Of a stretch of 64,000 nucleotides of DNA, positions 4,698 through 50,283 are shown in pieces. Each line of letters opens with the position of its first letter. Within the stretch, counting starts at the first letter, position 1. Location: IMG/VR virus record IMGVR_UViG_3300028557_000015, positions 52,206 through 116,205 of that record, one strand, 5' to 3'. Made by a program: the position numbers and the translations under genes. The notes under the pieces are model-generated. The model ran no database searches, was not told the DNA's origin, and saw only the letters and a list, made by a program, of their open reading frames with translations. Source of the DNA: a virus.

Positions 4698-4705
4698 TTT
4701 ATTCC

Positions 4706-21400: not shown

Positions 21401-24400
21401 ACATCAAAATTAATGATTTATTTCTAAACAATAATAAATTGCTAGGTAATTCTTCATTTACTGCACGAATAATACTACGTGTTTCTTCACTTGGGAAGGT
21501 ATCAAAAGGTGTCGTGTCAAAAAAGTTATCACCAAATCCTATTCGTGCTTCTGCATAATCCCATAATGAACTACTAAACTGTATTGTACCATTTTGCAAT
21601 CCAATACGGACCCACTCAATGCCATCATACACATATGTTTCTTGTAATCCGTCACCATTCTTATTAACAGTAACAATTAGTCCAAGTTGAGCATTGATTG
21701 GAGCTAAATCATAATATGATTCCACTAACATAGCAGACTTAGTATTATCATTATATCCAGGTGCCCACCAGTTAATTAATTCCCAGTAATCTTGTGTGTT
21801 GTAGAATAATTCTGGTGCACCAGGCCAATTTGGGTTATCAACTGTAGAAGGATTGATTGCACCTTCTGTGAATAAGAATTTCAAACTGCTTGTTTCAGCT
21901 AATGGATATTGTGCTAATACTGTGTTATAGAATTGCAAATAGTTTTCTAATGCTTTAAATCTATTGTAGAAGAAACTTTGACGAGGACGTACTAATATAC
22001 CACTCTGTACTGGTTTTGGTAAGAACGGATCAGGAACAACAGCGCCGGTTTGATTGACACCACTGAAACTCTCAAGCATTCTGTTATACAATGATTCCGG
22101 TACTACTGTATCTCCTATGCCAGGTAGTCCTGGTAAGAAATCATCAGCATAATTAGAACGTATTAAACTGTACACACTATGCGAAACATCGTCATTTGTT
22201 CCTGTAGCAAAGCCAATATGCAATGCAGTATCAGTCGCATTGATATTACTACCGCAATTATATAAACCAAATACATTTGGTTGTATTGCTGCCATATATG
22301 AAATACCTGTAGACAATGGGGTAGCTATATATGATTCACATATAGTATCTGATAATGTTTTTCCTATTTGGTTAAACACAATGTTTGTATTTCTTACCCA
22401 ATAGTAATATACAGGTACAAGAGCTCCTGTGCTATTCAATCTATATTCAATTGCATAGTCATCAATACTACGAGGTGTGCCTGGTCCTTGATATACGATT
22501 GGTTCAACGTCACTGGTAACCCAACTATATACTTTAACGTCACTGCCTGGGAATACTCTACCCCACCATTTACTATTATAAACAACATCATCACTTTGAT
22601 GATAGTTTACAAATCGTGTAGTGCTTGTATCGAACCATAACTTACCTAATTGTCCCGGACCCCATACGGTAGAACCTTTATTCGTTGCATCAGGACTATT
22701 GTAATTTGCAGGATCAGTGTTAGATACTATGTCTAAATTCTCACGTACTGCGCCCAATAATTTACCTTGCAACGGATCAATATAATCTAAATTGTCTAAT
22801 GTATTGTTAGTTGATACACTATATAACTGAACGTTTTGTATAGCATCAGTATCAACGATTGGTGCAGAATTACGATACACTATCCAATCAGATTCACCTG
22901 AACTATTGTTATAAATCACTACTTGACCATTATCATATCCAGGTCTAAAGTTAGGTGTACCAATGATAACGCTGTTATTATTAAAATCTAACGCTGTACC
23001 ATAATATGGTTGGCTACCATAATCTTCATTCAGTGCATTAACGCTTTGAGCATATACATATGCACCAGAATTATTTACATTTTCATTGTAAACAGGCAAG
23101 TAATCGTACATATACACTGCGCCTGCATTAACAAAACTATCTATGAACTGTGTTGTATTGTTATCAAACAATGTATCATTGTCATAGTTTTCATCATCAC
23201 TTGCATCAAACGTTGTTTCTGCATATCGTGCTGATGCCGGAGCACTTACTACAAATGAACCACTAGAGTTAAATTTAATAGTAGAACCAAATTGTGTTCT
23301 ACCTTGACTATGCGGGTCATTGATTAATTGTGTTTGTGTATATAACTGTATACCCAATTGGTCTAATACATCAGCATCTAAAACAGACACAGTTAACTTA
23401 GCATTGATAAACGCTAAATCTACACTGATAACTTGAATAGTTAAAATGTTATTTGAAGCAGATGCAGTAACGTTTGTGATGTTTGCAGAAGTAATAGCAT
23501 TGGCAGCTGCCGTTGCATTTCCTGCAGGAATATTTACAGCATAACCATTTACTAATATTGTAGTAGCCGCAGTTACGTTGCACTCAGTAGTGCCGGTAAC
23601 TATACCATAACTGCTACCTCCATATGTATAACGATAAACAGCACCTTCAGCATTTTGACTGTTAATTTCAAACGGTGCGCCAATCAATAATTCATTTGCA
23701 TAAGTGTCTACATCTAAGCTATAACCAAAGTTTGTTCCAACTTCAGGATTAGCATCTACTGATGTGAATTCTTGTGTTAATACAAATTCAGAACCGCTTA
23801 CAGTAATGATATCACCTGCAGTTAATGATTGGTAAACATTAATATTTGTTCCAACAACACCGTATTCATTATCATCAATCAATGTCCCATTAACGCTTAC
23901 AAAGATTGGTTCAGTTTGTTGAACAGCGGACATTGAACCAGTGTCGGTAATTAATTGTAATGTTGAACCACCTCGTTCAGTAGATACAGTGAAAGTAGTT
24001 CCTGATGGTTTAGCCAATACATAATAAACTGTGTTTAATGATACTCCACCAAATACAGTTCCAGTAAACACGATAGGATAACCAACTGTTAGAACAGAAC
24101 TGTCAGTACACGTAAAACGGTCAGTACCTGCGTTAGTATCAGTGACCGTCACTGGTGTTGTGATTGGTGTAAATATCAAACTAAACGTTTGTGGGGCAAA
24201 CGGTGAGCTTGTAAATGGTGCCTCAAACGTTTGTACTAACCTTTCAAAAGAGTAAGCAGTACCTAAATCAGCAACAACGGTATCATTTTCTGGCGCACTA
24301 ACAGCTACAATATTACCATAATAGTTTGTGGCAATAGAATAACCAAAACTATCACCTGCACTTAATCCGGCAACTGTAATCGTGTCAGATAATTCATATA

Positions 24401-27400
24401 AAGTAGTTAAATCAGATTTACGATAGACATAAACTAAATTCTGTTCATATGCAGAGATGTATAGCCAATTTTGGTCACCAGATAATGCGATTGAAGAACC
24501 CCAGTTGGTTACAGAATCGTCATCAGGTGATTCAATTACTTGTACTTCTTGCAATTCGTTAAGTAAATTGTTAATTACTAAATCGTAAATATAAACTTTT
24601 CTGTCAGTATAGGCTGCACCAGTTGGTTGTGATATTACAAATAAATTATCTGAATATGCAATCGTAGAACCAAAAGATATACCCTCAGTAATTGTTTGAA
24701 CAATACTATAAGAATCAAAAACCGAGCTATAAGAATAACGATATGCAACACCGGTCTCTGCGTCACTAATCAAATAACCTAAATTACTTGTTTGTGCAAC
24801 TGCACTACCATATGTTAATGAATTAGTTTTTAATAATTCATCTTCATATACATAGTTTAAACTCTTACGATATACAGCCCAAGAGCCATCATCATTTTCA
24901 TCAACCCAAACTTTGTTCTTTACAAATTCACTGTCAAGTAAAGGCAAGTTATTAATATCACTTGGTGTAGCTACACGTTGAGATGAGAATTTCATCGCAA
25001 CACCTTCACCGGTGATTGTTGTCAATGCCGATGATAAACTTAATAGAATAGTTACTCTAAATGGATCTACTACTGTTGCAACAATTCTGTAACCATCAAT
25101 ATTACTATTAAAATTAATAATAGCAAATGGTTGATATTTTGTTAAATTGTGCGGTGTTGCAAACTGTAGTGTGACAGTTCCATTTAAGTTATTGATTGCA
25201 CCCACTACTTGTCCGGCACTTGTTGGAGTATATACTTGCCAAGTGCTATTATAATCAGCTAACCATACGTATTCATTTACATATAAATGTGATAGAGGAG
25301 TTGTTGCAGTATTCAATCCATTATAATAGTACGATGAGATTTTAACATCATTAAAGTTAGTATAACCTGCATCCGGGAACACTCTATTTGGTGTATCTGA
25401 CGGTAATGTGGGTAATACATTTGGATTATTTATAGGTCTTCCATAATTAAAAACTGAATATAACGGTACTTCTTGTTCTACACCATCAGTATACACACCG
25501 GTAGTAAGTCCAACAATAGATGGATTACCTGTTAATTGATTTTGATTTAATCTAAAATCAACAAAGTTATTGTTTAATACACCACCAAACTCGCCGGTCT
25601 TAATAGCCCAGTTTTCATACACATCATAATCAATACCACCTTGTGGTAAGTTTAATCCTTTAAAACTATTTGCCGCAATTCGTGTACCTTTTTCTTTGAT
25701 AAGATTTTTATAAACATTAACCTGTGTTATGTCTGTCAAATCAGCTAATGCTAAGTAATCACGTGGTCTATATCCAATCAATGACCAACTTAGTAGGTCA
25801 CTATCTTGGTCTAAATTAGTTTTGTTTGTATCATAAAACAATGTTGCTTCATATGAACGTGTTGAACTGTTAGGCAGTAACCCTTTCTGAATCTCATTAT
25901 AATCAGTTTCTTTCCAATACTGTTCTTCAAATATTTCCTTTGCATTTAATACTTTTAATGCAAACCAATATTTGTTTTTATACTTAACAATACTGCCTCT
26001 TGTATACTTTTGATTAGTACTCCATTCTTCAATATTATTTTGGTTAAGAATAAAGCCTTGTGCATCAATAGTACCATTCCAATCAGCAGACTTTGTGCCT
26101 CTGGTTAAGATACGATTTTGTCTTAAGCCAGTTACTAAATTATACAATACGTCATTGAACACAGTAACATTATCAAACACAATACCGTGTTCAAAGTTAC
26201 TAATGTTAAACTGACCATACGCAACAGTATCACCTTCATTTAATGGTGTTGCACTAAAGAACGTACTATCACGTGTTACTGATAATTCATTACTTTGTAT
26301 TGGGTAGAAGTTTTGATTTAAAATAAAGTTTTGTCTTTGTAGTGTTAGAGGTTGAACTATATGACTATCTTTATTAATAGTAATCAAATTAGCGGCTGGA
26401 TTTAAGTTAATTAAACTTCCTGTTTCCCAACCACTCTGTGCCCAGTATAATAATTCCGTAACCATTTGACGCCAGTTAACATCTATACCAGATTCTATTT
26501 GGTCAAATAATACACCTTGTGTTAATAAATATCTTCCATAGTTAGCTATAAATTGACTTAGTGATTGTAAGTCAAGAAACTCAGTTCCGTATGGTACAAT
26601 ATTAGTTTTGTTTTCAGTATAGTCATTTGCTAGTTGAACTGATATATTACCCACTGTAACTTTATTGTAGTTTCCATTAATCTTAGGAGTTACCGTAGTG
26701 AAGTATGCGGTATCTTGTGAGTTACCAAATACTTTCCAACCAGCGTTTGTGCTTTGCACAACAACGCCGCTATAAATTACAGTGGTTATAGGTACATTAT
26801 CATACAATACTACACTATAACTTTCGTCTGGAATTAGTAATGATGCATTTCTACTGTTTGGTGTTCCCTTTTCAACATAGAAACCAAGCAAACTCTTATC
26901 ACTAAATCCTGCCAATCTATAAATCAATCTTACATCTAAATTATCAAATAAGTCTGTAATATTTTGTGTGGCATTAATACCAACTTGCTTTTCATAATCA
27001 ACTATCCAGTTTATATAACTTGTTTTTGCCGTTCCATTACCATATATGGCAACATCACTAATCACTAAGTGACTGCGATTATTAACTAGATATTGATTAA
27101 ACTCCGTACTAAATTTGTAGTTGTCTACATCAAAACCCAAGTTAAAGAATTTTGCAGGTTTAGTAAGAGCAAGAATCTTCATTAAGTCGAAAGGCCAACT
27201 ACTGCTTCTGCGGTATGAGAATTCAACTGGGCCTACATCTCCTACAGCCCATTCATTTCTAAATGTTCTGAAATTATAGTTACCCATCACTGCATCAAAC
27301 GGGGATAATAAATTACCTGCACCATCTACTGGTATTACACTTAATAATTCTTCTCTAATAAATTCAGGCAAGACAATTGGATCACCGTTATTCCAGTTGA

Positions 27401-30400
27401 TGCCCGCAGCCATATCTCCCCATAATACCAAGTTATCACTTGTGTATGGTGCGGCGCCGTATCTATCAGTCCACCAAGTTGGTTGATTTGTAAAGCCAAT
27501 CATTTCCCAAGGTGTGGTGTTTGGAGTACTTGTATCATAGAAGTACTCATATATACCTCTCCAGAATCCTTGTGGAATTGGTTGTCCATTAATTCTATTA
27601 CCGGACTGGGTGTAATTATAACTAAACTGGTCATTGGGTTGATAAAATTGTTTCTTATATTCAATGCGATTCTGCCCAACCCAATTTAAGAAATACTGAC
27701 TGTATATTTGTAAGACTTCATCATATGAGTAGTTGGTTGTTCTAAAGAATCCCGGAATAACATCATATTCAGTAATAGGAACTATGTCTGTTAATTTAAG
27801 ATTATTATAAACACGTGATTCAAATTCCAATAGTGCTTGGTCTCTAAAGTCAACTAAATTTCCATCAATATATTCTCCATATAATTTAGTATATGAACCA
27901 TCATGTCCTTGAATAAAATATGTAGGTTGAGAATAATTACTATCTAATACAACTCCGGGAATAAATGAGGGGTATAATCCTAATTTAGTAGGAGTGTTTG
28001 GTACATAACTTCCAAAAGTCTGATTGTATTCTTTAATTGTTACAATGTCTCCAGCAGATAAGTCTTTTGTAATAGTCAATGATGGAGTATCTGTACTTAC
28101 TGTATAATCCTGATTAACAATCAATTGTTGTGTTGATGTAAAGTTATCTACTGTTGTAGTCAAATAAACTAATACGCCATAATAATTTGCGGTATCAAAA
28201 TTATAAATTCTTGTTAAAGGGTAGATACTTGTATCTAATGAGTTAGCAAAAGTATATGTATTAGTAGCATATGCCGCTTTACTTGGCAACATATCACTCC
28301 AGAAAAAAGGTTCTGATTCTGTTTTGTTTTGGGTAATTTGATCCAATGCATCATCTAAAATAGTTGCAGGAGTCTGATATATGTTATATTCAGTTCTATC
28401 TATAGTATAAACCAATAACGACCTAAAAGTAATATACTGCTGACTGTTATACTGCAAAGAATTAATAAGATTATTATTTTGTGACCTTAACAACGATCCA
28501 GGTAATGCTAAACTTGCACTATTTTGAATAATCTTATTTCCCCAAGGCACAAGATTACCTAAGTCACGATAATTGTTTGAGCCAAAAACGTCGCCGGTTG
28601 TGTTTGGGTTGTTATAGAAAATACTTTGATATTGACCGCGAATGTCACCTACGTTAACAACAGATACATCATCATTGAACGGATTGTTTTGTAAGTTGAT
28701 AGGTATTTGATAGTATGCAGTTGGACTTACCTGATCGCTTAATAATGTGATTTCAACTACTGTATCAATCAGTGGATTAGGTACAGTGAAATTTACAACT
28801 GTAGTATTATCTGTAATGGTAAAAGTATAAGTTGATGTATCTTGTAATACGTTATTAACGTAAACTTGAATATTAGGCCATACTGTATTTGTTGAGGCAG
28901 CTATATCACAAGTATAGGTTGTAGTTGCTTCAGATGCAACATAGTTAAAAGAAAATATTTGATACTGACGACTTTCTGCAACAGCGGTTTGCCATCCTAA
29001 TTGTCTAACAACAGTTGTTCCAGATGTGTAATTATATACATAACCTGTATTAACTTTTTGTGTAATTGGATTAGTACCACTTACATAATTAAATGTTTCA
29101 CTGTTTAATGGTACGTCAAAACTGATATCACCTACGTTATTAACTGCACTATAACGTAGTGGGAATCCTAGTACAATATCTTTAATTCCAGAACCAATTC
29201 CATAACTGAATAATTTATTGCCAGCAAATGATGTACCTACATATACATCGGTGTTGCCAAAACTAATGCCATCATTATCAAATATATCAAAGTATGGTGC
29301 TTGATTAACTGTTGTTTTTTGTTGTGCTATTAACCATTCAATACCATCAAAGTAAAAATCTTTACCTTCATTATTATATCCCTTAAATGCAAAGGTGCAT
29401 TCCAACGGTAATACTAATCCGTCACTTGCTTCAGTAAGAGTAATTACCGGCGTGCCTGTACCTTGTATATCAGAAAATCTTACAACATATATTTTGTTTC
29501 TAACATTTTCATTTGTATCGGCAGAAAAAACAATTCTTGCACCATCATATAATGAATAATTATCATTTGATAAATCATTTGCTACCAATGATGAACCTGT
29601 AGTGGCAGGAATCGTTGTAGAAGTATCCCAAGTCACAGTAAGTGTTAAGGTTGACGTACCTGTAATAGTAGTAATTTGAGTATTTCTAGGTAAGACATTT
29701 GTAGTATCACTTATGTATTGCCCAACCTGAAATGTGCCGGTAACATCTGATGCGGCAATAGTAATTGTCGTACTTGTTCCAGTAACACCTGCAATAGTTG
29801 CAGTATAAGCAGTATATGTTTCAACGTCTGGCCAATAATTTTCTTGACCGGCTACAAGTGTAAATGCATCAGTTGTTCTATCATCAAAGAAATCAATTGG
29901 ATCTTTGCCAACGACACCATTATTAAATAACCTTAAATTAGGATAAAACTCAATGATTGGGCGTTTAGCTTTATTGTCCTGTGTTGCATATATTGTTGCA
30001 ATCGCAGGATTATTATTATAGGTAGCAGTTGCATTGATAACATCAATGTGGAACCAACGGTTGCTTCTTGACCAAGCATTTTTATCTATACTGTTTCGTG
30101 CAATCGTAATATAATCTTGATACACAGGGATGTATAGTGTGCTATCATAGTTACCTATATCATATGGCAATGAATCAAATGGGGTGTATGCACCTTCAGT
30201 AAAAGGTTCCGGTGTAATAAGGTCTGCTACGTTTAATAATTCAATTGCTGTACCAACACCTTCTACATAATATTCACCATCTTTATAGCTTGTAGGAAAA
30301 ATATCACCACTGAAACTTACTTTAAGACCATTAGTAAACACTACACCATTTGGACTTGTATATTGTTGTTGACCTAATATTTCAGTAATATCTATTTGAT

Positions 30401-31688
30401 TAGTTGAATTGCTTTCAATCAATCTAATGATACCAACCTTGTTAGCACTTGTGCCGTCTTGGTAATACAATGTATCTAATATAGCACTTAGATATGGTAC
30501 AAGATTAATAGATCCACTAGTGTTGCGGAAAAAGTTTCGTGCTTTCCATTCTGTGCCATAGTTTGCAGTAATCTTTTCATTTGTTGGAATGTTACTTGCA
30601 GGAACTAATCTTAATACAGGATCAGATGGGTCACCTACATAAGTTATTGTGTAGAATGTAGCAGATACATCCGTATAAAAGCCACCTTCAAAATTATTGA
30701 AATCAGCACTAGTGCCAGGTGGTGTGTAGCTCGCACCACCATCTTCATCAAATAATGTAGTATCATAAAACTTAGAAGTAAATCCTTGTTCATCAACAAC
30801 TCCGGTATTGTAAAACATAACAGTAAGACCTTCAAGTCCTGTCACGCCATCAATGTTGCCTACATCACTTAACAACTGACCATTGATTTGGTCGAACGGT
30901 GTAGTAGACACAACGTCTACTAAATTATTACCCGGGAAGTTATATTCATCTTGTGCATTTTTATATGGTACTGTAAATATAACGACACCGGTAGTCGTGC
31001 CATTATTTTCAACACCCAATACATCACGTGTTTGTAAATTAAGTTGTTGTGGATCATATCCAGTAATACCCGGTTTACCTTGAATCCAAAATTCAGTAGG
31101 CTGATTTACAGTAAACGTATATGTGCCACCACGAATCAATGTTAATGTGGGATTGGTTGTGCCGGCTGGATTAACGTCACTCGATATATTATAACCATTA
31201 GGTAGACTTCTAACTGTGTAGTCTGTGGCAGTATAAACAATATCTGTGGAAATATTAACAGATGGTGCACCTGTTGGCAACCAATAATATTGATTAAAGT
31301 TAATTATTTTATCTAAGTTAGTAAAGCTATCCCAAGAATAAAATTCACTGTTGAATAATCTATCATTGTTATCTGTTAATGCACCTTCTAATTTTAATGC
31401 ATCTATGATACCGGGATAACTGATAAAATCTTTAGCAGTATTTGTATTTGTTTTGGTAAAAACAACTCCAGGATCTAATTGATAATCTCTGCGAACTTTT
31501 GTAGGTTCTACTACGTAATTATCTTTAGCGTTAATACCATAACCAAATTTACTACCAATATAACCCTCAATCCTCATCGTATTGGGTTGGTCAACGATTT
31601 GATCCAGTGTTGCCCCCAAGAATTGACTATTAGTAGGTGTTTGGAATATCTCTGGTAAAAAATTTAGTGTTCTAATTCGTGCTGCCAT
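12474..31688 (-). CDS. Giant tail/baseplate structural protein (6404 aa) with nested repeats and beta-propeller-like regions
   Basis: One unbroken frame of 19.2 kb, nearly a third of the window. It follows gp6, where T4 has gp7 and gp8, but is about six times longer than gp7 (about 1030 aa). The start MAARIRTLNFLPEIFQTPTN is typical of baseplate proteins of marine T4-like phages. Residues about 2300-2930 hold FG-GAP/integrin-like propeller repeats (VYVYRKSD, YGxSxA, VVSAP). About 2530-2590 and 3890-6130 hold at least eleven copies of a FTGxxFGG...TYYVxxI...FTIS...TGSM module. About 4600-5020 hold BNR/sialidase-like blades (SSDGYxW, TSTNNGNTW) without visible catalytic residues. About 5540-6100 hold recursively nested GTTDFTLIG modules. 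Near residues 3230-3430 a non-repetitive region (NWWAPGYND, AKPYHVVIKDFLF) may be the structural core. It probably forms a large baseplate appendage or receptor-binding structure; the role is inferred. Confidence 0.85.
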   Translation of the reverse strand: MAARIRTLNFLPEIFQTPTNSQFLGATLDQIVDQPNTMRIEGYIGSKFGYGINAKDNYVVEPTKVRRDYQLDPGVVFTKTNTNTAKDFISYPGIIDALKLEGALTDNNDRLFNSEFYSWDSFTNLDKIINFNQYYWLPTGAPSVNISTDIVYTATDYTVRSLPNGYNISSDVNPAGTTNPTLTLIRGGTYTFTVNQPTEFWIQGKPGITGYDPQQLNLQTRDVLGVENNGTTTGVVIFTVPYKNAQDEYNFPGNNLVDVVSTTPFDQINGQLLSDVGNIDGVTGLEGLTVMFYNTGVVDEQGFTSKFYDTTLFDEDGGASYTPPGTSADFNNFEGGFYTDVSATFYTITYVGDPSDPVLRLVPASNIPTNEKITANYGTEWKARNFFRNTSGSINLVPYLSAILDTLYYQDGTSANKVGIIRLIESNSTNQIDITEILGQQQYTSPNGVVFTNGLKVSFSGDIFPTSYKDGEYYVEGVGTAIELLNVADLITPEPFTEGAYTPFDSLPYDIGNYDSTLYIPVYQDYITIARNSIDKNAWSRSNRWFHIDVINATATYNNNPAIATIYATQDNKAKRPIIEFYPNLRLFNNGVVGKDPIDFFDDRTTDAFTLVAGQENYWPDVETYTAYTATIAGVTGTSTTITIAASDVTGTFQVGQYISDTTNVLPRNTQITTITGTSTLTLTVTWDTSTTIPATTGSSLVANDLSNDNYSLYDGARIVFSADTNENVRNKIYVVRFSDIQGTGTPVITLTEASDGLVLPLECTFAFKGYNNEGKDFYFDGIEWLIAQQKTTVNQAPYFDIFDNDGISFGNTDVYVGTSFAGNKLFSYGIGSGIKDIVLGFPLRYSAVNNVGDISFDVPLNSETFNYVSGTNPITQKVNTGYVYNYTSGTTVVRQLGWQTAVAESRQYQIFSFNYVASEATTTYTCDIAASTNTVWPNIQVYVNNVLQDTSTYTFTITDNTTVVNFTVPNPLIDTVVEITLLSDQVSPTAYYQIPINLQNNPFNDDVSVVNVGDIRGQYQSIFYNNPNTTGDVFGSNNYRDLGNLVPWGNKIIQNSASLALPGSLLRSQNNNLINSLQYNSQQYITFRSLLVYTIDRTEYNIYQTPATILDDALDQITQNKTESEPFFWSDMLPSKAAYATNTYTFANSLDTSIYPLTRIYNFDTANYYGVLVYLTTTVDNFTSTQQLIVNQDYTVSTDTPSLTITKDLSAGDIVTIKEYNQTFGSYVPNTPTKLGLYPSFIPGVVLDSNYSQPTYFIQGHDGSYTKLYGEYIDGNLVDFRDQALLEFESRVYNNLKLTDIVPITEYDVIPGFFRTTNYSYDEVLQIYSQYFLNWVGQNRIEYKKQFYQPNDQFSYNYTQSGNRINGQPIPQGFWRGIYEYFYDTSTPNTTPWEMIGFTNQPTWWTDRYGAAPYTSDNLVLWGDMAAGINWNNGDPIVLPEFIREELLSVIPVDGAGNLLSPFDAVMGNYNFRTFRNEWAVGDVGPVEFSYRRSSSWPFDLMKILALTKPAKFFNLGFDVDNYKFSTEFNQYLVNNRSHLVISDVAIYGNGTAKTSYINWIVDYEKQVGINATQNITDLFDNLDVRLIYRLAGFSDKSLLGFYVEKGTPNSRNASLLIPDESYSVVLYDNVPITTVIYSGVVVQSTNAGWKVFGNSQDTAYFTTVTPKINGNYNKVTVGNISVQLANDYTENKTNIVPYGTEFLDLQSLSQFIANYGRYLLTQGVLFDQIESGIDVNWRQMVTELLYWAQSGWETGSLINLNPAANLITINKDSHIVQPLTLQRQNFILNQNFYPIQSNELSVTRDSTFFSATPLNEGDTVAYGQFNISNFEHGIVFDNVTVFNDVLYNLVTGLRQNRILTRGTKSADWNGTIDAQGFILNQNNIEEWSTNQKYTRGSIVKYKNKYWFALKVLNAKEIFEEQYWKETDYNEIQKGLLPNSSTRSYEATLFYDTNKTNLDQDSDLLSWSLIGYRPRDYLALADLTDITQVNVYKNLIKEKGTRIAANSFKGLNLPQGGIDYDVYENWAIKTGEFGGVLNNNFVDFRLNQNQLTGNPSIVGLTTGVYTDGVEQEVPLYSVFNYGRPINNPNVLPTLPSDTPNRVFPDAGYTNFNDVKISSYYYNGLNTATTPLSHLYVNEYVWLADYNSTWQVYTPTSAGQVVGAINNLNGTVTLQFATPHNLTKYQPFAIINFNSNIDGYRIVATVVDPFRVTILLSLSSALTTITGEGVAMKFSSQRVATPSDINNLPLLDSEFVKNKVWVDENDDGSWAVYRKSLNYVYEDELLKTNSLTYGSAVAQTSNLGYLISDAETGVAYRYSYSSVFDSYSIVQTITEGISFGSTIAYSDNLFVISQPTGAAYTDRKVYIYDLVINNLLNELQEVQVIESPDDDSVTNWGSSIALSGDQNWLYISAYEQNLVYVYRKSDLTTLYELSDTITVAGLSAGDSFGYSIATNYYGNIVAVSAPENDTVVADLGTAYSFERLVQTFEAPFTSSPFAPQTFSLIFTPITTPVTVTDTNAGTDRFTCTDSSVLTVGYPIVFTGTVFGGVSLNTVYYVLAKPSGTTFTVSTERGGSTLQLITDTGSMSAVQQTEPIFVSVNGTLIDDNEYGVVGTNINVYQSLTAGDIITVSGSEFVLTQEFTSVDANPEVGTNFGYSLDVDTYANELLIGAPFEINSQNAEGAVYRYTYGGSSYGIVTGTTECNVTAATTILVNGYAVNIPAGNATAAANAITSANITNVTASASNNILTIQVISVDLAFINAKLTVSVLDADVLDQLGIQLYTQTQLINDPHSQGRTQFGSTIKFNSSGSFVVSAPASARYAETTFDASDDENYDNDTLFDNNTTQFIDSFVNAGAVYMYDYLPVYNENVNNSGAYVYAQSVNALNEDYGSQPYYGTALDFNNNSVIIGTPNFRPGYDNGQVVIYNNSSGESDWIVYRNSAPIVDTDAIQNVQLYSVSTNNTLDNLDYIDPLQGKLLGAVRENLDIVSNTDPANYNSPDATNKGSTVWGPGQLGKLWFDTSTTRFVNYHQSDDVVYNSKWWGRVFPGSDVKVYSWVTSDVEPIVYQGPGTPRSIDDYAIEYRLNSTGALVPVYYYWVRNTNIVFNQIGKTLSDTICESYIATPLSTGISYMAAIQPNVFGLYNCGSNINATDTALHIGFATGTNDDVSHSVYSLIRSNYADDFLPGLPGIGDTVVPESLYNRMLESFSGVNQTGAVVPDPFLPKPVQSGILVRPRQSFFYNRFKALENYLQFYNTVLAQYPLAETSSLKFLFTEGAINPSTVDNPNWPGAPELFYNTQDYWELINWWAPGYNDNTKSAMLVESYYDLAPINAQLGLIVTVNKNGDGLQETYVYDGIEWVRIGLQNGTIQFSSSLWDYAEARIGFGDNFFDTTPFDTFPSEETRSIIRAVNEELPSNLLLFRNKSLILMFNYIVSETIESQNYLPWLNKTSFIDVAHTIRELLPLEVFQSDNQEFLAGYLNEAKPYHVVIKDFLFKYTGTNVYEGEITDFDLPAQYNTQFQQYITPELVYANPSSINQYLPTDPIWQTQPYINWFNNQGLSITGVNDYPITLLLSYLTLNSISMVVDNVYGFPTTGVILIGEEEIAYSSVDRAYSTLSGLTRGVNGTTITNHLPGEQIIIDLPPVLLLNGGRGYAEPPKVTAYIDTTIYPAPRRAAILQPVMNLDTILRIDVIDPGEGYQVLPEIRIDPSEIVTFASTDVDVLTNTITLQTQFVQTGDLIQYYVGTDTTAVGGLDDGQYYYLAVLENTPFYVVALYTSYANALQDHDRVVLTNTGTGSNNNIAVSARASCVSTSLPTRENIITLRFDRTTYDSQVTEWAPDNFYGSFYAGLFNNSTRIASSAITLEQTQPPVNDILASAQGATFEIQDITNDQVLTWSSFIRQVGETVAANDAVRLTYDSTQPNASGSTIGFYVGMPVKFVGAVGPVITNNTTYYVAEVINESDFSISTTVSGSVLPLTDYTVTAAGLSCYAGEVTNTAIVTIAYPGILDVTATELTTNFITTPTLPTGTAGTSGFYVGLPVYFVGNVFGGIIENETYYIITVIDSETFTISTTNDPLILTATNTTVTTNLVTVGSTLELSVNDPIIFTGTMFGGLVAGQIYYVASIYNGTQITLSSTINGPVTTLSTATGSCTLTSQTTAVQLTTATGSMTMNVGLPVSPGQVTGQLFTFYPTVASVGTGVSGTNGNLVTRDTVAATSNGDYLYLRYLSGGLTNIYNNLPFVLSESIGGLTAGDTYYVVSNGALAVEVASSSSSTNEYTLASGTLTTGFYIGMPISFSGAVFGNVVALVTYFINSYDLGGDTFTITDTIGGSDLVLTTDNGQMTLTADNPYITLTDTLGDPAIGLTDEILETVFTQDPISSPTFNVGKKLGGYTIDIVNPGSGYTFDNTITISGTDLGGTSPLNDLVLTVSGIDVIVANTNPNYDFLLPVESDGNVTSVIGSGTPAGIVRQYYLKVISATQCEVYANPLLNVPVNGLVLETEYTLGDYVFLPEPFYFNQSIVKYNNQVWQCIISNNDNEFIIGKWELLNSGSRKLNELDRIIGYYDPTVNMPGVDLTQLIEGITYPNSTYLDNAFAPEDQYTLDTILQDQPFYPTSVDTVAISWNGTTYVAAANTPEYSASLLSVDASSWAINKLVNIPVNASDIIYANGLFVIVCESATTPIYTSTDGIVFTTAGGAFTPYDATPYSINNYDSTLLSVESTSLSSVAYGNAIWIAVGENIVLSTDTFSWAQVDTFTNGLVNNLNSVTYVNIPSYVGFISVGNGQEIISGSTQGTSVIKISSDGYVWTTLPIVSYKGFNGVTSSSSMIVAVGEDGVIYTSLNGTNWFGLNESNIISVNASTNVINVGSTTGFQVGNTVRFTQSFNVISSGTTYYVVDVTSSTQLKVSTTSGGSPITLNATNPPSTTFMYIYPTGPTLNDVLYANSLFMAVGNTGTIKTSSDGYTWTIKTSGTTKDLNGITYNSIDGEWIVVGDDNAIITSTNNGNTWISSSVFETAPTVYDVQGDAFTAGYGPEELVPGVVSDNLTMIVTTRPGTDWDTSIYGHAGYNVVSTEIVPDSGQTEFSFEGVVENPANISLFDITTATNTSIRIYDFTVDWVNKVVTIGTALAVDHTLRLDVYEVGNGNQLVKANSQTIPFVDNISTGFVEMPLNCNYSADRFNGSGVIRPNTDPKSVNAIETDAIDNGIVCESVDYFAVNAPITFQGAVFGGIVSGTTYWIKTISYITNKITISASVSGGIAGPTFDVTSATGIMLVNIQSTNGLVWTDPILIHNGTNLVLGEQGIVSETNSGTNTIVVNSTDHYEVGDTIVFSDAIDTGSFVSSGLIAQQQYYITSIVGNEFTVSLTSSGTNVTLANATGIALCVTNDYAIAIADEGITAKIVFANQYTQANDFVVLSVFGETAPVQYGYTVPEVELFELTTAVTEFTLSNYVGGDNAKNAIVEHNGRRLVETSDYTIDFNTETLSLNFGTSAGDTVAVTSYNLTDRQYLHTTYGGTFSGSTTNSFFIGSTTHTPGYDANITAGQFLVGSEYVITKVGTTDFTLIGSTQINAGSFVIGTSYTIDGLGTTDFTLIGATQVAAGSFVIGNVYIINSIGTTDFTLIGASSNTIGLEFVATGVGTGTGTALNNIFVATGIGSGTGTSLESLFTASGAGTGTGTAAIGFDGGVITTAGSFTIGATYEILTVGTTNFTLIGSVDNNVGTMFTATGVGTGTGTAGTGLYSPGPDYLTLSSGNTNSLNINDAITFTGTTFGGIVANQTYYVVNIISSTEFAVSETPGGSAIQLTTDFGSMIGITNPPTVAPISGVDNLITAPITVGITSTTITTNVVTCSSTIGFSPGQPIMFKRSNPATPYGNILCDGTVYFIKTVVNGFDFTISETPSGPVMVQVTTSGAILAEVSGNPAVSITTGVPHNLAENDIVRIDGTLGSVQLNNNTYYAKIISATQIALYNSAYDPTANAINDPVTIVSTWTGGGYVWLDKTFTITTTLATATTASNDRITVSSSLELILGTPIIFTGSDLLGGLESEVTAGSFTEGNTYQINSQGTTDFTLIGALNNNVGTNFVATGVGTGTGTATAIYYVYDKPSATTFRVTAVRDGDVFALTNDTGSMNVSQWEQGNVDRLWVTINGYRIPSSALRLNPDNNLSILSTVEPGDVVIITSMIPTATPNQAVYLQNVNKTGVPSVYRANSLTRTWLTETLQDTDDTIYVEDVTMITETIIQNETAPAEIDGIISIGLEGDKQAICQVIVYNNDTTQTVDPADYYIAVEATAPILKITGGVSGGELLTITVILGNLIYVNGEQIGFTTVNFDTNTVTGLQRGANGTGEQTFIPKYSEVYGILSSNKLPTVYNALTWNSYNYNLVDGDPLQISTTFSANFLNADVP
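13391..13542 (-). repeat. GTTDFTLIG module inserted inside an FTG...YYV module
   Basis: Residues about 6050-6100 of the giant protein read AGSFTEGNTYQINSQGTTDF, then TLIGA, then FVATGVGTGTGTA. On its left is the first half of the other repeat (IIFTGSDLLGGLESE) and on its right the second half (IYYVYDKPSATTFRV). One module therefore sits inside the other. Confidence 0.7.
14476..14620 (-). repeat. Complete GTTNFTLIG module (reference copy)
   Basis: Residues about 5690-5738 give an uninterrupted copy: opening AGSFTIGATYEILTVGTTNF, then TLIGSVDNNVG, then closing MFTATGVGTGTGTA. This copy defines the opening and closing halves used to read the nested block next to it. Confidence 0.75.
14640..15070 (-). 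repeat. Triply nested GTTDFTLIG block (three openings followed by three closings)
   Basis: Residues about 5540-5683. Three opening halves follow one another (AGQFLVGSEYVITKVGTTDF, AGSFVIGTSYTIDGLGTTDF, AGSFVIGNVYIINSIGTTDF, each followed by TLIG), and then three closing halves (FVATGVGTGTGTA, FVATGIGSGTGTS, FTASGAGTGTGTA). Compared with the complete copy, this is what repeated insertion of the module into its own centre would produce. Confidence 0.75.
16640..17880 (-). repeat. BNR/sialidase-like propeller repeats within the giant protein
   Basis: Residues about 4603-5017 contain repeated units of the form YxNGLFVxV..., (S/T)SDGxxW and STNNGNTW, spaced about 40-60 residues apart, as in BNR beta-propellers. 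I see no set of catalytic Arg/Tyr/Glu residues of a sialidase, so binding rather than hydrolysis is more likely. Confidence 0.6.
22900..24800 (-). repeat. FG-GAP/integrin-like propeller region, interrupted by inserted modules
   Basis: Residues about 2297-2930 show repeated ISDAETGVAYRYSY, FGSTIAYSDNLFVIS, WGSSIALSGDQNWLYIS, FGYSIATNYYGNIVAVSAP and FGSTIKFNSSGSFVVSAP phrases. An FTGTVFGG...TGSM module (near 24110-23920) and an Ala/Thr-rich segment (near 23610-23340) interrupt the series between blades. Confidence 0.6.
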
Positions 31689-45172: not shown

Positions 45173-47244
45173 TTACATTACAAGACATTACATTACGAAA
45201 TTTTTTATCTATCGGTGCAGTAACACAAGCAGTAGACTTTGACAAGAAAGACTTAACACTTATTCTAGGTGAGAATTTAGACTTAGGTGGTGACGGTGCT
45301 CGTAATGGCACAGGTAAAACTACATTGATTCAAGGATTATCCTATGCATTGTTTGGTACACCCATTAATAACATTCGTAAAGATAATTTAGTTAATCGTA
45401 CAAATGGTAAGGGTATGCTAGTCACTCTTACTTTTAATGTTAATGGAACAAACTATAAAATAGAGCGTGGTCGTAAGCCAAACATTCTGAAATTTTACGT
45501 GAATGATATCCAAGATAAAGCTACTGAGGATCAACAAGGTGAGAACAAAGAAACGCAGGCATCAATTGAAAAAGTTATCAATATGTCAGCCGACATGTTC
45601 CGCCACATTGTTGTATTGAATACATACAGCGAACCGTTCTTAGCATTAAAGAATAATGAGCAGAAAGATATCATTGAACAACTAATGGGTATCACGTTGC
45701 TATCTGAGAAGGCTGAAGTCATTAAAGAAATGATTCGTAAAAGCAAAGATGATATTCAACAGGAAGAATTTCGTGTTAAAGCCATTGAAGAAGCTAACAA
45801 ACGTGTCAAGGAACAAATTGACGCATTGAAGCGCAGACAAACATTGTGGTTGAAGAAACATGATGAAGATTTAACCAGTCTTGCACTACAGTACGATGAA
45901 CTAAGCAAGATTAACATTGAAGCAGAGTTACAAGCACATAAAGATTTGAACGTTTGGACTAAGCAAAAAGAGGCACAAGACACATACAATGCGTTAGTTG
46001 CTCGTTCAACTGCTTGGCAACAAAAACATGACACAGATGTTTCAATAGCACATAAGGCTTACTCACTTAAAAATGAGTATGACATTGAAGCTGAACTTAA
46101 AACGTGGGGTGATTTAAAAGATTGGCTACGTGATGAGGCTGAACAAAAATCAATAGCAACAATAATTGATACCCTAACCAAAAGTATCACAAAAGAAAAA
46201 AAATTAATAGATAAACTGGTTCGGGAAGTTAAAGAACTTGAGGATCATAAGTGTTATGCTTGTGGGCAAGACTTCCATGATAATAAGCATTTAGAAGTTA
46301 CATTAGAAAAGACTACAGTACTTGAGAATGCCCGTGCAGAGTTGGCTGAACTTGAAAGTCAAATGTCAATCAATCAGTCATTGGTTACTGATTTAGGGAC
46401 AAAGCCTACTCCATCATACAAAACAGAAGCAGAAGCTATTCGTCACAGTGGTGATGTGTCTAATCTGAAGAAAGTATGGGAAGATAAGAAACAAGAATCT
46501 AATCCTTTTAGTGAACAATTAAATGAGTTAACTCCTAAGGATTCCTTAGGACTTCAACCTGTCACTCACTACGATACAGAAGCAGAAGCAATCAAACATT
46601 CAAGTGAGGTTGCTAACATTCTTAATCAAATTGATAACAAGTCACAAGAAACTGATCCATACAGTGAACAAGTAGTTGAGATGGAAACACAAGCACTACA
46701 AGCTATTGACTTTGAAGCTATCAATAGATTAACAAGAACAATGGAACATCAAAAGTTCTTGTTAGATTTGTTAACTAGCAAAGATAGTTTTGTTCGTAAG
46801 AAGATTATTGATCAGAACTTGAGTTATCTAAACGCACGATTGACACATTACTTAGATAAGATTGGTCTACCACATCAGGTTATCTTTAAGAATGACTTGC
46901 AGGTTGAGATTACAGAGTTAGGTCGTGAACTTGACTTTGATAACTTAAGTCGTGGTGAACGCAATAGATTGATTCTTGGTTTATCGTTTGCTTTCCGTGA
47001 TGTATGGGAATCATTGTATAGCCCTATCAATACATTGTTCATTGACGAATTGATTGATTCAGGTCTTGACACGATGGGTGTTGAGAACAGTCTAGCAATT
47101 CTCAAAGATATGAGTCGTAGACGACAGAAAAGTATTTGGCTTGTTTCACATAGAGAAGAACTAGCAGGTCGTGTACCTAATGTATTGAAAGTTGTTAAAG
47201 AGAATGGCTTCACCAGTTATAACACAGCAGTAGATATAGAATAA
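45169..47244 (+). CDS. 46: Recombination endonuclease subunit gp46-like (Rad50/SbcC family, 691 aa)
   Basis: The Walker A motif GARNGTGKTT is at residues 43-52, the zinc-hook CYACGQ is near residue 361 between two long coiled-coil arms, the ABC signature LSRGERNR is near residue 592 and Walker B LFIDE near residue 623. This is the complete Rad50 architecture, of ordinary gp46 size but with an obvious zinc hook. It uses ATP to control the gp47 nuclease. The zinc-hook CxxC should dimerise the complex. The 4-base overlap with gp47 and the TAATG link with the following radical-SAM gene place all three in one operon. Confidence 0.93.
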   Translation: MITLQDITLRNFLSIGAVTQAVDFDKKDLTLILGENLDLGGDGARNGTGKTTLIQGLSYALFGTPINNIRKDNLVNRTNGKGMLVTLTFNVNGTNYKIERGRKPNILKFYVNDIQDKATEDQQGENKETQASIEKVINMSADMFRHIVVLNTYSEPFLALKNNEQKDIIEQLMGITLLSEKAEVIKEMIRKSKDDIQQEEFRVKAIEEANKRVKEQIDALKRRQTLWLKKHDEDLTSLALQYDELSKINIEAELQAHKDLNVWTKQKEAQDTYNALVARSTAWQQKHDTDVSIAHKAYSLKNEYDIEAELKTWGDLKDWLRDEAEQKSIATIIDTLTKSITKEKKLIDKLVREVKELEDHKCYACGQDFHDNKHLEVTLEKTTVLENARAELAELESQMSINQSLVTDLGTKPTPSYKTEAEAIRHSGDVSNLKKVWEDKKQESNPFSEQLNELTPKDSLGLQPVTHYDTEAEAIKHSSEVANILNQIDNKSQETDPYSEQVVEMETQALQAIDFEAINRLTRTMEHQKFLLDLLTSKDSFVRKKIIDQNLSYLNARLTHYLDKIGLPHQVIFKNDLQVEITELGRELDFDNLSRGERNRLILGLSFAFRDVWESLYSPINTLFIDELIDSGLDTMGVENSLAILKDMSRRRQKSIWLVSHREELAGRVPNVLKVVKENGFTSYNTAVDIE

Positions 47245-48125
47245 TGCCAGATATTTTTCGTTTTCAGAATGTAAAGATTGTACATTTAGAGCCTACTACT
47301 AATTGTAATGCGGCTTGTCCTCAATGCCTGCGTACTAGAACTGAATTTGAACCCAATGAATTAAGTTTAGAAGATGTAAAGTTATTGTTTACTCCAGATG
47401 TATTAATGCAATTAGAAAAAATATATATGTGCGGTAATTATGGTGACCCTGCAAGTGCCAGACAGACATTAGAGATGTATGAATATTTTAGGTCTGTTAA
47501 TACTAATTTAACTTTAGGAATGAATACCAATGGTGGGATAAGATTTCCTGATTGGTGGACTAGACTAGCAAAGGTAATGAATAAACCAAATGATTATGTT
47601 GTGTTCAGTATAGATGGTTTAGAAGATACTAACCATTTATATCGTAGAAATGTTCGTTGGTCTAAAGTAATGGATAATGCAAAAGCATTTATTGATGCTG
47701 GTGGTAAAGCACACTGGGACATGTTAGTGTTTGAACATAACAAACATCAGGTAGATGAAGCACATAAACTAGCAAAAGATATGGGATTCAATTGGTTCCG
47801 TGCTAAAGTTAGCAGACGATTTAATCGTTTCCCCGTAGATGGAATTTCACAACCAATTGAGTTTAATGATACAAAAGTACTTGAAGGACATATAGAATGT
47901 TCTGCTATGAAAGAGAATAGTATTTTCGTAGACGCTTCAGGAAAAGTATTTCCTTGTTGCTGGCAAGTTGAAGGTAATTATCAACCAAATATTGTACAAT
48001 GGTTTTATGACTTATCAGAAAATTGGAATAATAATCCTGATACAGTGTGTAAGAAATCTTGTTTAAAGAATAATACAGGTACTACATTTAGTAATCAATG
48101 GTATCGAGAAGTAGAAATAAAATAA
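47244..48125 (+). CDS. Radical SAM/SPASM-like protein (293 aa) linked to gp46-gp47
   Basis: The core motif CNAACPQC stands at residues about 21-28. MCGNYGDP occupies the place of the usual GGEP (an altered SAM-binding loop), and VFSIDGL is present. The C-terminal half has FPCCWQ and CKKSC, which fit a SPASM/twitch auxiliary cluster after the core. This order, core then auxiliary domain, differs from the four cassette members at the left. Its ATG overlaps the gp46 stop (TAATG). The substrate is unknown; the link with DNA-end processing genes may mean early expression rather than a shared function. Confidence 0.82.
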   Translation: MPDIFRFQNVKIVHLEPTTNCNAACPQCLRTRTEFEPNELSLEDVKLLFTPDVLMQLEKIYMCGNYGDPASARQTLEMYEYFRSVNTNLTLGMNTNGGIRFPDWWTRLAKVMNKPNDYVVFSIDGLEDTNHLYRRNVRWSKVMDNAKAFIDAGGKAHWDMLVFEHNKHQVDEAHKLAKDMGFNWFRAKVSRRFNRFPVDGISQPIEFNDTKVLEGHIECSAMKENSIFVDASGKVFPCCWQVEGNYQPNIVQWFYDLSENWNNNPDTVCKKSCLKNNTGTTFSNQWYREVEIK

Positions 48126-48141
48126 TTTATACAGTAATGTT

Positions 48142-48720
48142 ATGATAAGTAATAGTATGCCAAGTCCACAAAAAGCAAAAGGTTCAGGTTTTGAACGAGA
48201 AATTGCTAAATATCTTTCAGAGAAGTACAGTGAATCATTCATTCGTGCTCCCGGCTCAGGTGCTTATATTGGTGGAAAGAATCAATCAAGAACTCAAATA
48301 CTACATGAAGGTCAGATTAGAAGTTTTAAAGGGGATATAGTTCCTGGACAGACTTTTACTAAGATGAACGTAGAGTGTAAGTTCTATGCTGATTTTCCGT
48401 TTCATCTATTACTTTCAGGGGAATGCAAAGTAATAGATGGTTGGCTAGAACAACTCATGGATGTAGCTGATCCGGACGATTGTAACATTCTTTTTATGAA
48501 GTTCAATCGTAAAGGTCGTTATATTGCTGTACAAAGCAAACTAACATGGGTTACTGACAATTTCTTGTATTATACAAGTCCTAAATTAGGAGATTGGATA
48601 ATTATGGAATTTGACAGCTTCTTCTTAAACAACAGTACATTATTAAAAGCATATTCAGGCTCAACAGACACCACGTCAAATCAAACTGTTACAAAAAACA
48701 TCCTCACAATAGAAAATTAA
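48142..48720 (+). CDS. PD-(D/E)XK nuclease, Holliday-junction-resolvase-like (192 aa)
   Basis: The order KGSGFEREIAKYL, FIRAPGSGAY, KGDIVP and NVECKFY matches the Hjc/RecB-like PD-(D/E)XK fold: a Glu in the first helix, Asp in GDI, and Glu and Lys in ECK for metal and catalysis. It would cut branched or damaged DNA during recombination, fitting its place behind gp46-gp47. The ATG at 48142 is the longest choice; 48157 (MPSPQKAK) is an alternative, as Hjc-like proteins often begin with KAKGSxxER. The last about 30 residues are Ser/Thr-rich and not part of the fold. Confidence 0.72.
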   Translation: MISNSMPSPQKAKGSGFEREIAKYLSEKYSESFIRAPGSGAYIGGKNQSRTQILHEGQIRSFKGDIVPGQTFTKMNVECKFYADFPFHLLLSGECKVIDGWLEQLMDVADPDDCNILFMKFNRKGRYIAVQSKLTWVTDNFLYYTSPKLGDWIIMEFDSFFLNNSTLLKAYSGSTDTTSNQTVTKNILTIEN

Positions 48721-48730
48721 TTAAAATAAA

Positions 48731-49225
48731 AATGTGTCGTCCTGGTTGCAGGACCTCCTTGAGTTTGTACAGATTGTGCTGTGCTGACGGATCTGGAGTA
48801 AGCGTGTATAGCGATATATACGGAATACCGAGAAGGCAATCGACAAAGCGAACCTTCAACAAGTCTATGACAACTTTATTTCTGCGTCATAGAATGTGCG
48901 TTGCTGGATGAAACACAGAGTGTGCGTAAATTCAACTACAGTCCCATAAACTTTACAGAGCAACCGGTAGCATTTAATAGCATCAAATAGCTAATTAAGT
49001 GGGGAAGAAATAACAACGGATGACGGGCGTGCAAACAACCTTTACTATTGGTAGTGCTGAATAGCACTACCATGGCTTCAAAGCGGCAATATAGTCCTTA
49101 TTAGATTAACAGTAAAATAGAATAGATAACCGTAAAATATAAGAACGAACGAAGTGAGTTCTTAGATGAACGAAGTTCATCTTTACAAGAGATGACCCGA
49201 TGTGATAAATGAACAGTTACGGGTT
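48731..49225 (+). ncRNA. Candidate large structured RNA (about 0.5 kb), class undetermined
   Basis: No convincing reading frame exists on either strand from 48721 to 49228, the longest non-coding stretch in the window, and it looks richer in G+C than its surroundings. It can form at least seven strong stems: 48739-48744/48749-48754; 48803-48810/48815-48822 with a GCGA (GNRA) loop, extended by GUA/UAC beyond an AG/GAA internal loop; 48864-48871/48886-48893; 49049-49058/49063-49072 (10 bp); 49141-49146/49158-49163 enclosing a tandem GA/GA mismatch; 49164-49171/49175-49182 with a GAA loop; and 49195-49199/49220-49224. GNRA and GAA loops favour plus-strand transcription. Size and setting recall the large ornate phage RNAs (GOLLD, ROOL), but I cannot match a family from memory. 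Confidence 0.6.
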
Positions 49226-49228
49226 TGA

Positions 49229-49459
49229 TTAGAAGAATGGCATCTGTGATTTCTTAGTGACTTCCAGATTACTATCAATAATTTTCTTAATTTCATCTCT
49301 TTCATCAGAGGACATGTTTAATATATCTTCATATGTTACACCACCTCTCATGTACCAACTCATACTAAGAGCATTTTTCTTAATAGCGGCACACTCAAGT
49401 TCCATATCATCTATCAGCTTCTTTACACCCTCGTGGTCAAGGTGTAGAAGCTTTATCCG
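49229..49459 (-). CDS. Frameshift extension of gp26 (76 codons, -1 frame), tail-assembly-chaperone-like
   Basis: I translated this open frame directly: RIKLLHLDHEGVKKLIDDME, then LECAAIKKNALSMSWYMRGG and on to a C-terminus of KKSQMPFF. It has no ATG near its beginning; the first in-frame ATG is at codon 19. A stop lies just upstream in its own frame. It is reached exactly by a -1 slip at the heptamer in the last codons of gp26. The fusion would be 351 aa (275 + 76). The helical, charged sequence looks like real protein, not chance. Alternatively an internal ATG (MELECAAIKK) could give a 58-aa protein. It resembles the G/GT arrangement of other phage tail chaperones. Confidence 0.7.
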   Translation of the reverse strand, partial: RIKLLHLDHEGVKKLIDDMELECAAIKKNALSMSWYMRGGVTYEDILNMSSDERDEIKKIIDSNLEVTKKSQMPFF

Positions 49460-50283
49460 AAAAAATCAGATGTGTTCAGTGTAAATTGTTGACTATATTC
49501 ATTTTGGCAATGTATACATTTAATTTTTAATGGTTTAATTTCAGTCTGTGCCTTTAATTCAGCATTATAGTCTCTGATAGAAACATATGTATCTCTATCA
49601 CAATTCTTTAAAAAATCTAAAATATATTCACGTTCTTCTACATATGCGCTAGGAGTTCTTATATGAGTAATAGTCTGTGATAGTATTCTCATAGTTACAT
49701 CAGTAATAAATTTTAGTGCCTCTTGAGTTCTACTTGCACGTATTGCCTCATTTTCTTCTTTTTCTAATGTTAGAAAAATACGTTGTGCTTCAAGTTGAGT
49801 AGTTCCAGCTTCATTCATTTCTTTGTAAGTCAATGGTCTAAACTTAATAGATAAGTCATTTATAGTTAATTCTTTTTCATAATCGGCTGCTTTAAGCTGA
49901 CTTAGTATACCTACTAGATTTACAGCGTAGTCAGCTATTTCTTTACAACTTGGGCATTCAGATGAAATAGACATATCGTTTCCACCTGCCGCTGAACGAA
50001 TAGCAATCAACACAGCATCTAAGTCAATACTATTAATAGCCCAAGGATCTTTAATATCCGGTATACAACTTTTAATAATATCAGCCATAGCAGTACCGTT
50101 ATACAACGCATCCGGTGTTTTTGCACTAATCTCGTCAATTGCTGTCATGGGATATACAGGTAATTCACCAGACTCTGGAATAGTTACTACACCTGGTGGA
50201 TACAACTTACCACCGCTAGGTAGTTTCAAATAAATTGAAGGTCTACGGAAATATTGCTTTAATGGGTTGTTTTGGATAGTCAT
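49453..50283 (-). CDS. 26: Baseplate hub assembly protein gp26-like (276 aa)
   Basis: The start (PLKQYFRRPSIYLKLPSGGK, YPMTAIDEISAKTPDALYNG, IIKSCIPDIKDPWAINSIDL, AVLIAIRSAAGG) is characteristic of the T4 gp26-type baseplate hub protein family in marine phages. Cys110/Cys113 (CPSC) and Cys256/Cys259 (CIHC) can form a zinc ribbon joining the two ends of the protein. In T4, gp26 and gp51 act in hub assembly and lie near the tape-measure gene. Here the tape measure is the divergent neighbour. The gene ends SDFFG-stop through T TTT TTC, a -1 slippery heptamer, so a longer form is expected. Confidence 0.82.
   Translation of the reverse strand: MTIQNNPLKQYFRRPSIYLKLPSGGKLYPPGVVTIPESGELPVYPMTAIDEISAKTPDALYNGTAMADIIKSCIPDIKDPWAINSIDLDAVLIAIRSAAGGNDMSISSECPSCKEIADYAVNLVGILSQLKAADYEKELTINDLSIKFRPLTYKEMNEAGTTQLEAQRIFLTLEKEENEAIRASRTQEALKFITDVTMRILSQTITHIRTPSAYVEEREYILDFLKNCDRDTYVSIRDYNAELKAQTEIKPLKIKCIHCQNEYSQQFTLNTSDFFG
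49459..49465 (-). other. Putative -1 ribosomal frameshift heptamer (U UUU UUC)
   Basis: In gp26 frame the codons read GAT TTT TTC GGA TAA, so T TTT TTC forms an X XXY YYZ heptamer two codons before the stop. Slipping back one base gives CGG ATA AAG and enters the 76-codon open frame. The six-T run was counted twice. Confidence 0.65.

Follow-up and report, generated by a model that had tools for sequence, protein, structure and literature searches.

The locus

The DNA analysed here (the window, 64 kb) forms the right-hand end of an IMG/VR virus record of 116,205 bases from a T4-related phage. Genes for a late sigma factor, an SbcD/gp47-like protein, an SbcC/gp46-like protein, a radical SAM protein and a PDDEXK Holliday-junction resolvase follow one another, and the resolvase gene is the end of this operon. 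The radical SAM gene (47244-48125, plus strand) sits inside the recombination operon, immediately 5' of the resolvase. Next comes the element discussed in this work. Beyond it, on the opposite strand, are a 58-aa gene, for which no protein-family match was found, and a T4-type baseplate-hub gene, then tape measure and T4-type portal genes. ARAGORN finds no tRNA genes in the 64 kb. One minus-strand ORF of 6404 aa (12474-31688) is of a size exceptional even among jumbo phages.

The element fills a gap of 508 nt (48721-49228) flanked exactly by the stops of the resolvase gene and the 58-aa gene (Table 1). A preliminary description of this DNA spoke of about 500 bases without a convincing ORF, and this agrees with what we find: the gap has no ORF of 60 aa or more, and no ORF shared among relatives of the element was seen. 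We considered AUGGCUUCAAAGCGGCAA as a mini-ORF and rejected it; the reading frame is lost among relatives. The structural details in that description can also be located. Its stems of up to 10 bp include a 10-bp hairpin at 49049-49072, its GCGA loop lies at 48811-48814 and is a GNRA loop in 102/140 relatives, and the two consecutive hairpins with AACGAAGU have GAA triloops kept in 112/140 and 103/140 relatives. The GA/GA tandem mismatch is retained in 130/140, and the other stems and the AG/GAA internal loop are present in the window.

Table 1. Positions in the window of the type A RNA, its predicted parts and the adjoining genes
Feature	Position	Strand	Evidence or remark
PDDEXK Holliday-junction resolvase, upstream gene	48142..48720	+	PHROG 244 E 2.5e-19; PF24608 E 8.5e-23
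Type A RNA, whole conserved unit	48731..49222	+	ends taken from conservation; 5' block TAAAAATTNGTTG, 3' block GATAAATGAAYAGTTACGG
P1, possible terminal helix, 48733-48738 with 49208-49213	48733..49213	+	canonical in 76-98%, no significant covariation; tentative
P2 hairpin	48739..48754	+	4/6 pairs covary significantly
P3 arm with invariant CUCCUUGA, closed by CUCC/GGAG	48755..48798	+	4/12 pairs covary, others mostly invariant
P4 hairpin, GNRA loop (GCGA in window)	48803..48822	+	6/8 pairs covary; GNRA 102/140
P5 (ACCG/CGGU), 48826-48830 with 48965-48969, closes multibranch core	48826..48969	+	four invariant pairs, one strongly covarying
P6 arm, 48832-48836/48853-48857 and 48840-48842/48849-48851	48832..48857	+	outer pairs 4/5 covary; 3 inner invariant
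P7 hairpin, loop engaged in PK1	48859..48897	+	8/11 pairs covary
PK1, UUAUUU 48876-48881 with AAAUAA 49008-49013	48876..49013	+	6 pairs, 95-100% canonical, min p 2.8e-6
P8 core helix GUUGC/GCAAC, 48900-48905 with 48959-48964	48900..48964	+	3/6 pairs covary
P9 hairpin	48906..48934	+	6/9 pairs covary
PK2, UCCC 48942-48945 with GGGA 49002-49005	48942..49005	+	4 pairs, 91-100% canonical, min p 2.9e-5
P10 hairpin	48971..49001	+	9/11 pairs covary
P11 hairpin GGUAGUGC-N-GCACUACC, near-invariant	49045..49075	+	1 significant pair
A/U-rich linker, variable length	49088..49140	+	low conservation, length changes
3' module, tandem G.A mismatch hairpin 49141-49163 then GAA-triloop hairpin 49164-49182	49141..49182	+	4/8 pairs covary in each
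58-aa gene, convergent with RNA	49229..49405	-	43-100% identity across relatives
T4-type baseplate hub gene	49453..50283	-	PHROG 150, PF12322

Relatives and distribution

The first relatives came from scans with the two flanking proteins, which gave 160 loci. The distance from the resolvase stop to the stop of the small gene is readable in 139 of them, with 90 distinct gaps, nearly all of 410-560 nt. When IMG/VR was scanned blind with a DNA pattern of the RNA core, at least 120 matches came back, and a profile search of all collected loci yielded at least 240 full-length instances, comprising 140 distinct sequences with a mean pairwise identity of 71% and a minimum of 55%. We call this form of the RNA type A. 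Its relatives are phage sequences from environmental DNA, in the hundreds. Their neighbouring genes are the same ones wherever these can be read, and the length and ends of the RNA are constant in the at least 240 instances, even where the next gene has changed. Each of the 11 large type A records searched (137-525 kb) contains exactly one copy.

Against 50,697 phage records, blastn with the window RNA, and likewise with two RNAs of the sister type described below, gave chance-level matches only. Scanning 84,980 genomes of bacteria and archaea for the pattern gave a sole match, in Pandoraea, which we take as chance because the type A profile and the covariance models R1 and R2 failed to match that locus. 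The Rfam models recover nothing above chance by cmscan, either in the window at gathering scores or in 48500-49500 at E up to 10. The window RNA is absent in this form from Rfam; an uncurated earlier listing in viral candidate-RNA catalogues is possible.

Two further observations concern the neighbouring genes. In four loci (L003, L006, L007, L011) the resolvase is 95-99% and the RNA about 88-91% identical to the window, and the small gene and hub only 55-59%. We place a probable recombination breakpoint immediately downstream of the RNA in these loci because identity falls there to 55-59%. In L149 and L150 (locus 2897-4819) the hub gene is duplicated in tandem beside the RNA.

Evidence for a fold and for its strand

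Folding energy alone is mildly unusual, with z -2.8 on the plus strand (1/100 shuffles as good) and z -1.9 on the minus strand. It is the comparative evidence, not energy, that raises the element far above chance. The RNAalifold consensus of the 140 sequences reaches -193 kcal/mol on the plus strand versus -178 kcal/mol on the minus strand. Significant covariation is found in 54 of the 121 pairs (two-set E<0.05) against a tree-simulated null without structure, versus 0-10 pairs in slid controls, where one strand was shifted by 1-3 columns. The test is our own implementation, a G-test with APC and an AliSim null, and is distinct from R-scape. The counts reported here come from the two-set test applied to the pairs of the RNAalifold structure. 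Because this structure and the tested pairs stem from one alignment, the slid controls and the G-U asymmetry given below matter. A structure-free test of all column pairs leaves 13 beyond the null maximum, 9 of them at least 85% canonical. The pseudoknots PK1 and PK2 surfaced in a covariation scan outside the nested fold, and both have compensatory changes. P11 covaries little because its sequence hardly varies. We did not accept a CCGUAA/UUACGG pairing around the 3' hairpins, perfect in 66/113 sequences, because it is mostly one unchanging sequence with no compensatory change.

Among the pairs common to both strand models there are 430 G-U cells versus 185 A-C cells, and 41 of the 56 informative pairs lean to G-U (sign test p 7e-4). 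This excess argues for an RNA on the plus strand. The preliminary description had left strand and ends open; the plus strand is now favoured, and the conserved unit spans about 48731-49222. It had also proposed a large structured RNA, to be abandoned if homologues broke the pairing or revealed a decayed protein gene. The homologues keep the pairing: compensatory changes are extensive, two pseudoknots covary, and no common ORF was seen. We regard it as nearly certain, from these comparisons, that the element is a structured RNA. The alignment shows a predicted, covarying multibranch core with two pseudoknots, then a linker and a pair of 3' hairpins, on the plus strand and kept over wide divergence.

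In type A the RNA starts 0-60 nt after the resolvase stop. At its other end, GATAAATGAAYAGTTACGG remains terminal to the RNA where an extra minus-strand gene precedes the small gene (L068, L079, L210, L192). It keeps its place despite the inserted gene and therefore belongs to the RNA unit. At the window RNA there is no sigma-70 promoter above chance and no intrinsic terminator above chance, nor a T-run terminator. We rejected the idea of a late promoter of T4 type in the 5' block (TAAAAATT); the enriched upstream motif of the window, [CA]TAAATA, is absent there.

A sister RNA at the same locus

With more distant resolvases as queries we found a second form, type B, in a gap similar in place and size with a different core. 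It adjoins the same genes in more distant phages and has the same 3' tandem hairpins after a divergent core. Many of the listed matches from a blind scan for the type B motif adjoin the small and hub genes. Covariation is significant in 20 of its 54 pairs, with 0-5 in slid controls. A GUUGN/NCAACCG helix covaries in both types, and by its sequence the type A counterpart is P8; the core covariance models R1 and R2 make no cross-match.

The 3' module is common to both types. The type A profile finds it in more than 25 type B loci (E down to 5e-5), mostly 140-290 nt past the core motif with strand and order preserved, and the type B profile matches type A 3' ends with E down to 4e-9. The 5' domain with the P3 arm is common to type A and some type B RNAs: it is found in L319 (E 8e-8), L437, L482 and L386 (E about 7e-5), always between positions -173 and -104 relative to the core motif, and is missing from most type B loci. 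These comparisons show a sister type in which core and 5' modules appear to have been exchanged. L319 is a hybrid, with the 5' domain of type A and the core of type B, which suggests module exchange by recombination.

Among the type B matches listed, the upstream gene is on the strand of the RNA in 102 of 104 loci. It encodes a GIY-YIG SegE-like nuclease in 69 of those listed, a PDDEXK resolvase in 17 and other proteins in the rest; these loci are related to each other, so the counts are not independent. Since the upstream gene is almost always on the same strand, an operon transcript probably ends with this RNA. That the same-strand genes vary argues for co-transcription and against a regulator of one particular mRNA.

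The Rfam family Polynucleobacter-1 (RF01718, cut-off 37 bits) matches six type B RNAs: L334 (109 bits), L309 (106), L332 (87), L313 (64), L344 (62) and L350 (39). The match covers the first 135-160 nt, and for this reason RF01718 appears to represent the 5' portion of certain members of the group, a piece of a phage RNA that is about 450-700 nt long in full. The window RNA and the 11 type A records searched have no RF01718 match. The suggestion that the window RNA is possibly unclassified therefore stands for its own sequence, which has no Rfam family, and has to be qualified for the locus, where the sister type contains a curated family in its 5' part.

Comparison with known RNAs

Polynucleobacter-1 was described as a candidate structured RNA of Burkholderiales and of fresh water and estuaries (PMC2864571). 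Type B at the same locus matches it, and type B shares with the window RNA the 3' module, the GUUG/CAACCG helix and sometimes the 5' domain. However, the Rfam model has 141 nt, just the 5' part of the longer RNA, and type A has a different domain there.

Many GOLLD members exceed 800 nt, and the window RNA is shorter. GOLLD and ROOL are large, ornate, phage-encoded RNAs with multiple pseudoknots, a variable linker and unknown function (PMC12286853), and all of these features of form and origin recur in the window RNA. tRNA islands are often close to them (PMC12286853); in the window there is no tRNA, and its RNA, without an Rfam match, lies between recombination and baseplate genes. A homo-oligomeric cage is a further characteristic of GOLLD and ROOL. 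The preliminary description had named GOLLD, ROOL, introns and tmRNA as families to check, and none of them matches by cmscan or ARAGORN; group I and II introns and tmRNA are thus rejected as identities. HEARO and the transposon-associated guide RNAs are similar in that a structured RNA adjoins a nuclease gene. They differ in that the window RNA has no Rfam match and that the neighbouring nuclease is PDDEXK, GIY-YIG or absent, so there is no fixed pair of RNA and nuclease. OLE RNA is bacterial, mostly from Bacillota, whereas the window RNA is phage-encoded and without an Rfam match. OLE RNA is about 600 nt long, highly structured and RNP-forming (PMC12054373, PMC12286853). We see the likeness to GOLLD, ROOL and OLE as one of style, not of membership, and would treat these RNAs as unrelated to ours.

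Cultured phages

Two cultured phages have structured stretches beside their resolvase genes. Pseudomonas phage PA5oct has 1.5 kb with tiny ORFs only and z -9.3 (L163 3668-5180; NC_071039.1 75667-77179), which in PA5oct and its relatives is represented by 11 records that are 99.5-100% identical. At 75798-75826 PA5oct has an exact TTGACA-N17-TATAAT, which is the sigma-70 promoter consensus; a terminator-like hairpin follows downstream, and there is a tandem-hairpin module on the plus strand. We consider this stretch a candidate noncoding RNA of about 1 kb. Sinorhizobium phage Phosso has an unannotated gap of 1014 nt with a fold z of -6.7 (L164 3760-4773; PV764938.1 229759-230772). GAA-triloop and GCGAAG hairpins resembling the 3' module are seen on the minus strand of this gap. 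When the Phosso resolvase alone served as query, no relatives came up.

Covariance models of two core parts find no homologue in Atu_ph07, PA5oct, Phosso or SCTP-2. A relation of these four loci to ours is suggested only by the 3' hairpin motif and strong folding, and the Phosso and PA5oct gaps are leads, not members. In Agrobacterium phage Atu_ph07 (L162 5307-5807; NC_042013.1) the resolvase match overlaps two hypothetical proteins annotated on opposite strands. This annotation is probably wrong, since a single open frame (5313-5807, plus strand) covers the resolvase match.

What the RNA might do

The element is most likely a noncoding RNA gene, about 480-490 nt long and present in single copy, of T4-related phages that in many cases are jumbo-sized. 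Just 5' of it, on the same strand, there is a gene that usually encodes a nuclease, and baseplate-hub genes are nearby. The constant length and ends, the single copy and the resolvase stop 0-60 nt upstream count for a gene-like, operon-terminal unit. That the upstream gene can be PDDEXK, GIY-YIG or another counts for independence from one protein, and modularity is indicated by type B loci in which the 5' and 3' domains of type A recur at fixed places. The reading we favour, at about even odds, is that the RNA is processed out of the operon's transcript and works in trans as a scaffold, of an RNP or of RNA alone. It would be made as the 3' part of the upstream operon's transcript, and its own fold would stabilise or trim it. 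During infection it would then supply, in trans, the folded core of an assembly that is either an RNP or RNA only. This core would serve as scaffold, with P11 and the tandem 3' hairpins as putative binding sites, in the manner of GOLLD, ROOL and OLE.

The main rival to a trans scaffold is a role in cis in the 3' UTR, which would equally explain the position at the end of the operon. The RNA would be a 3' untranslated element of the recombination operon that works only as part of its mRNA: its fold would bar 3' exonucleases, stop transcription facing the convergent hub genes, or sense a ligand. It does come directly after a same-strand stop codon in type A and in 102/104 type B loci among the matches listed, the genes downstream are convergent in type A, and the 3' hairpins are near the end. 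However, the upstream genes are not homologous to one another, so no single mRNA would be regulated; with its two pseudoknots and about 370 nt the fold far exceeds the needs of a terminator, and a T-run terminator was not found at the window RNA. We judge a cis role possible and somewhat unlikely.

A role in replication or recombination, for example as a pre-primer forming an R-loop at an origin beside the recombination genes, seems to us improbable. ColE1 RNAII is an origin R-loop pre-primer of about 550 nt. The gp46/gp47-like, HJR or GIY-YIG nuclease neighbours, the one copy per record and the convergent arrangement of genes would all fit such a role, but conservation sits in the folded parts with a variable linker before the 3' hairpins, and the hub genes are equally constant neighbours. 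Another idea is a particle or motor RNA, like the pRNA of phi29, that would cooperate with the products of tail or head genes in the vicinity. The hub, tape-measure and portal genes are constantly close, but position alone is weak evidence and T4-type motors are not known to require RNA; we hold this idea very improbable. That there is no functional RNA at all, and that we see a decayed gene, a palindromic site in DNA or chance stems, could appeal to the near-perfect palindrome of P11 and to a minus strand that covaries nearly as much (RNAalifold -178 versus -193), as with any DNA palindrome, but the long-range pseudoknots, the excess of G-U over A-C on one strand, the lack of a shared ORF and the exactly conserved length and ends make it the least credible reading of all, one that covariation, pseudoknots and G-U asymmetry already contradict.

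Significance

The role of this RNA is evidently important. Few phage RNAs of such size and complexity are known, and those that are, GOLLD and ROOL, are without a function. Types A and B offer a widespread group with deep alignments, a pseudoknotted fold and a constant genomic position. They provide a probable parent for an orphan Rfam fragment, Polynucleobacter-1, described in 2010, and the RF01718 entry could be extended over the longer type B RNA. The structured gaps at the matching locus in PA5oct and Phosso would allow knock-out and structural tests in cultured phages. As a tentative picture, which we hold loosely, T4-related and jumbo phages may share a modular RNA machine at one locus, old and near-universal, its 5', core and 3' modules exchanged, with Polynucleobacter-1 as its only catalogued piece and with a reach that extends to PA5oct and Phosso. 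Such a machine might be a phage-specific ribozyme or an RNA-only assembly needed for infection.
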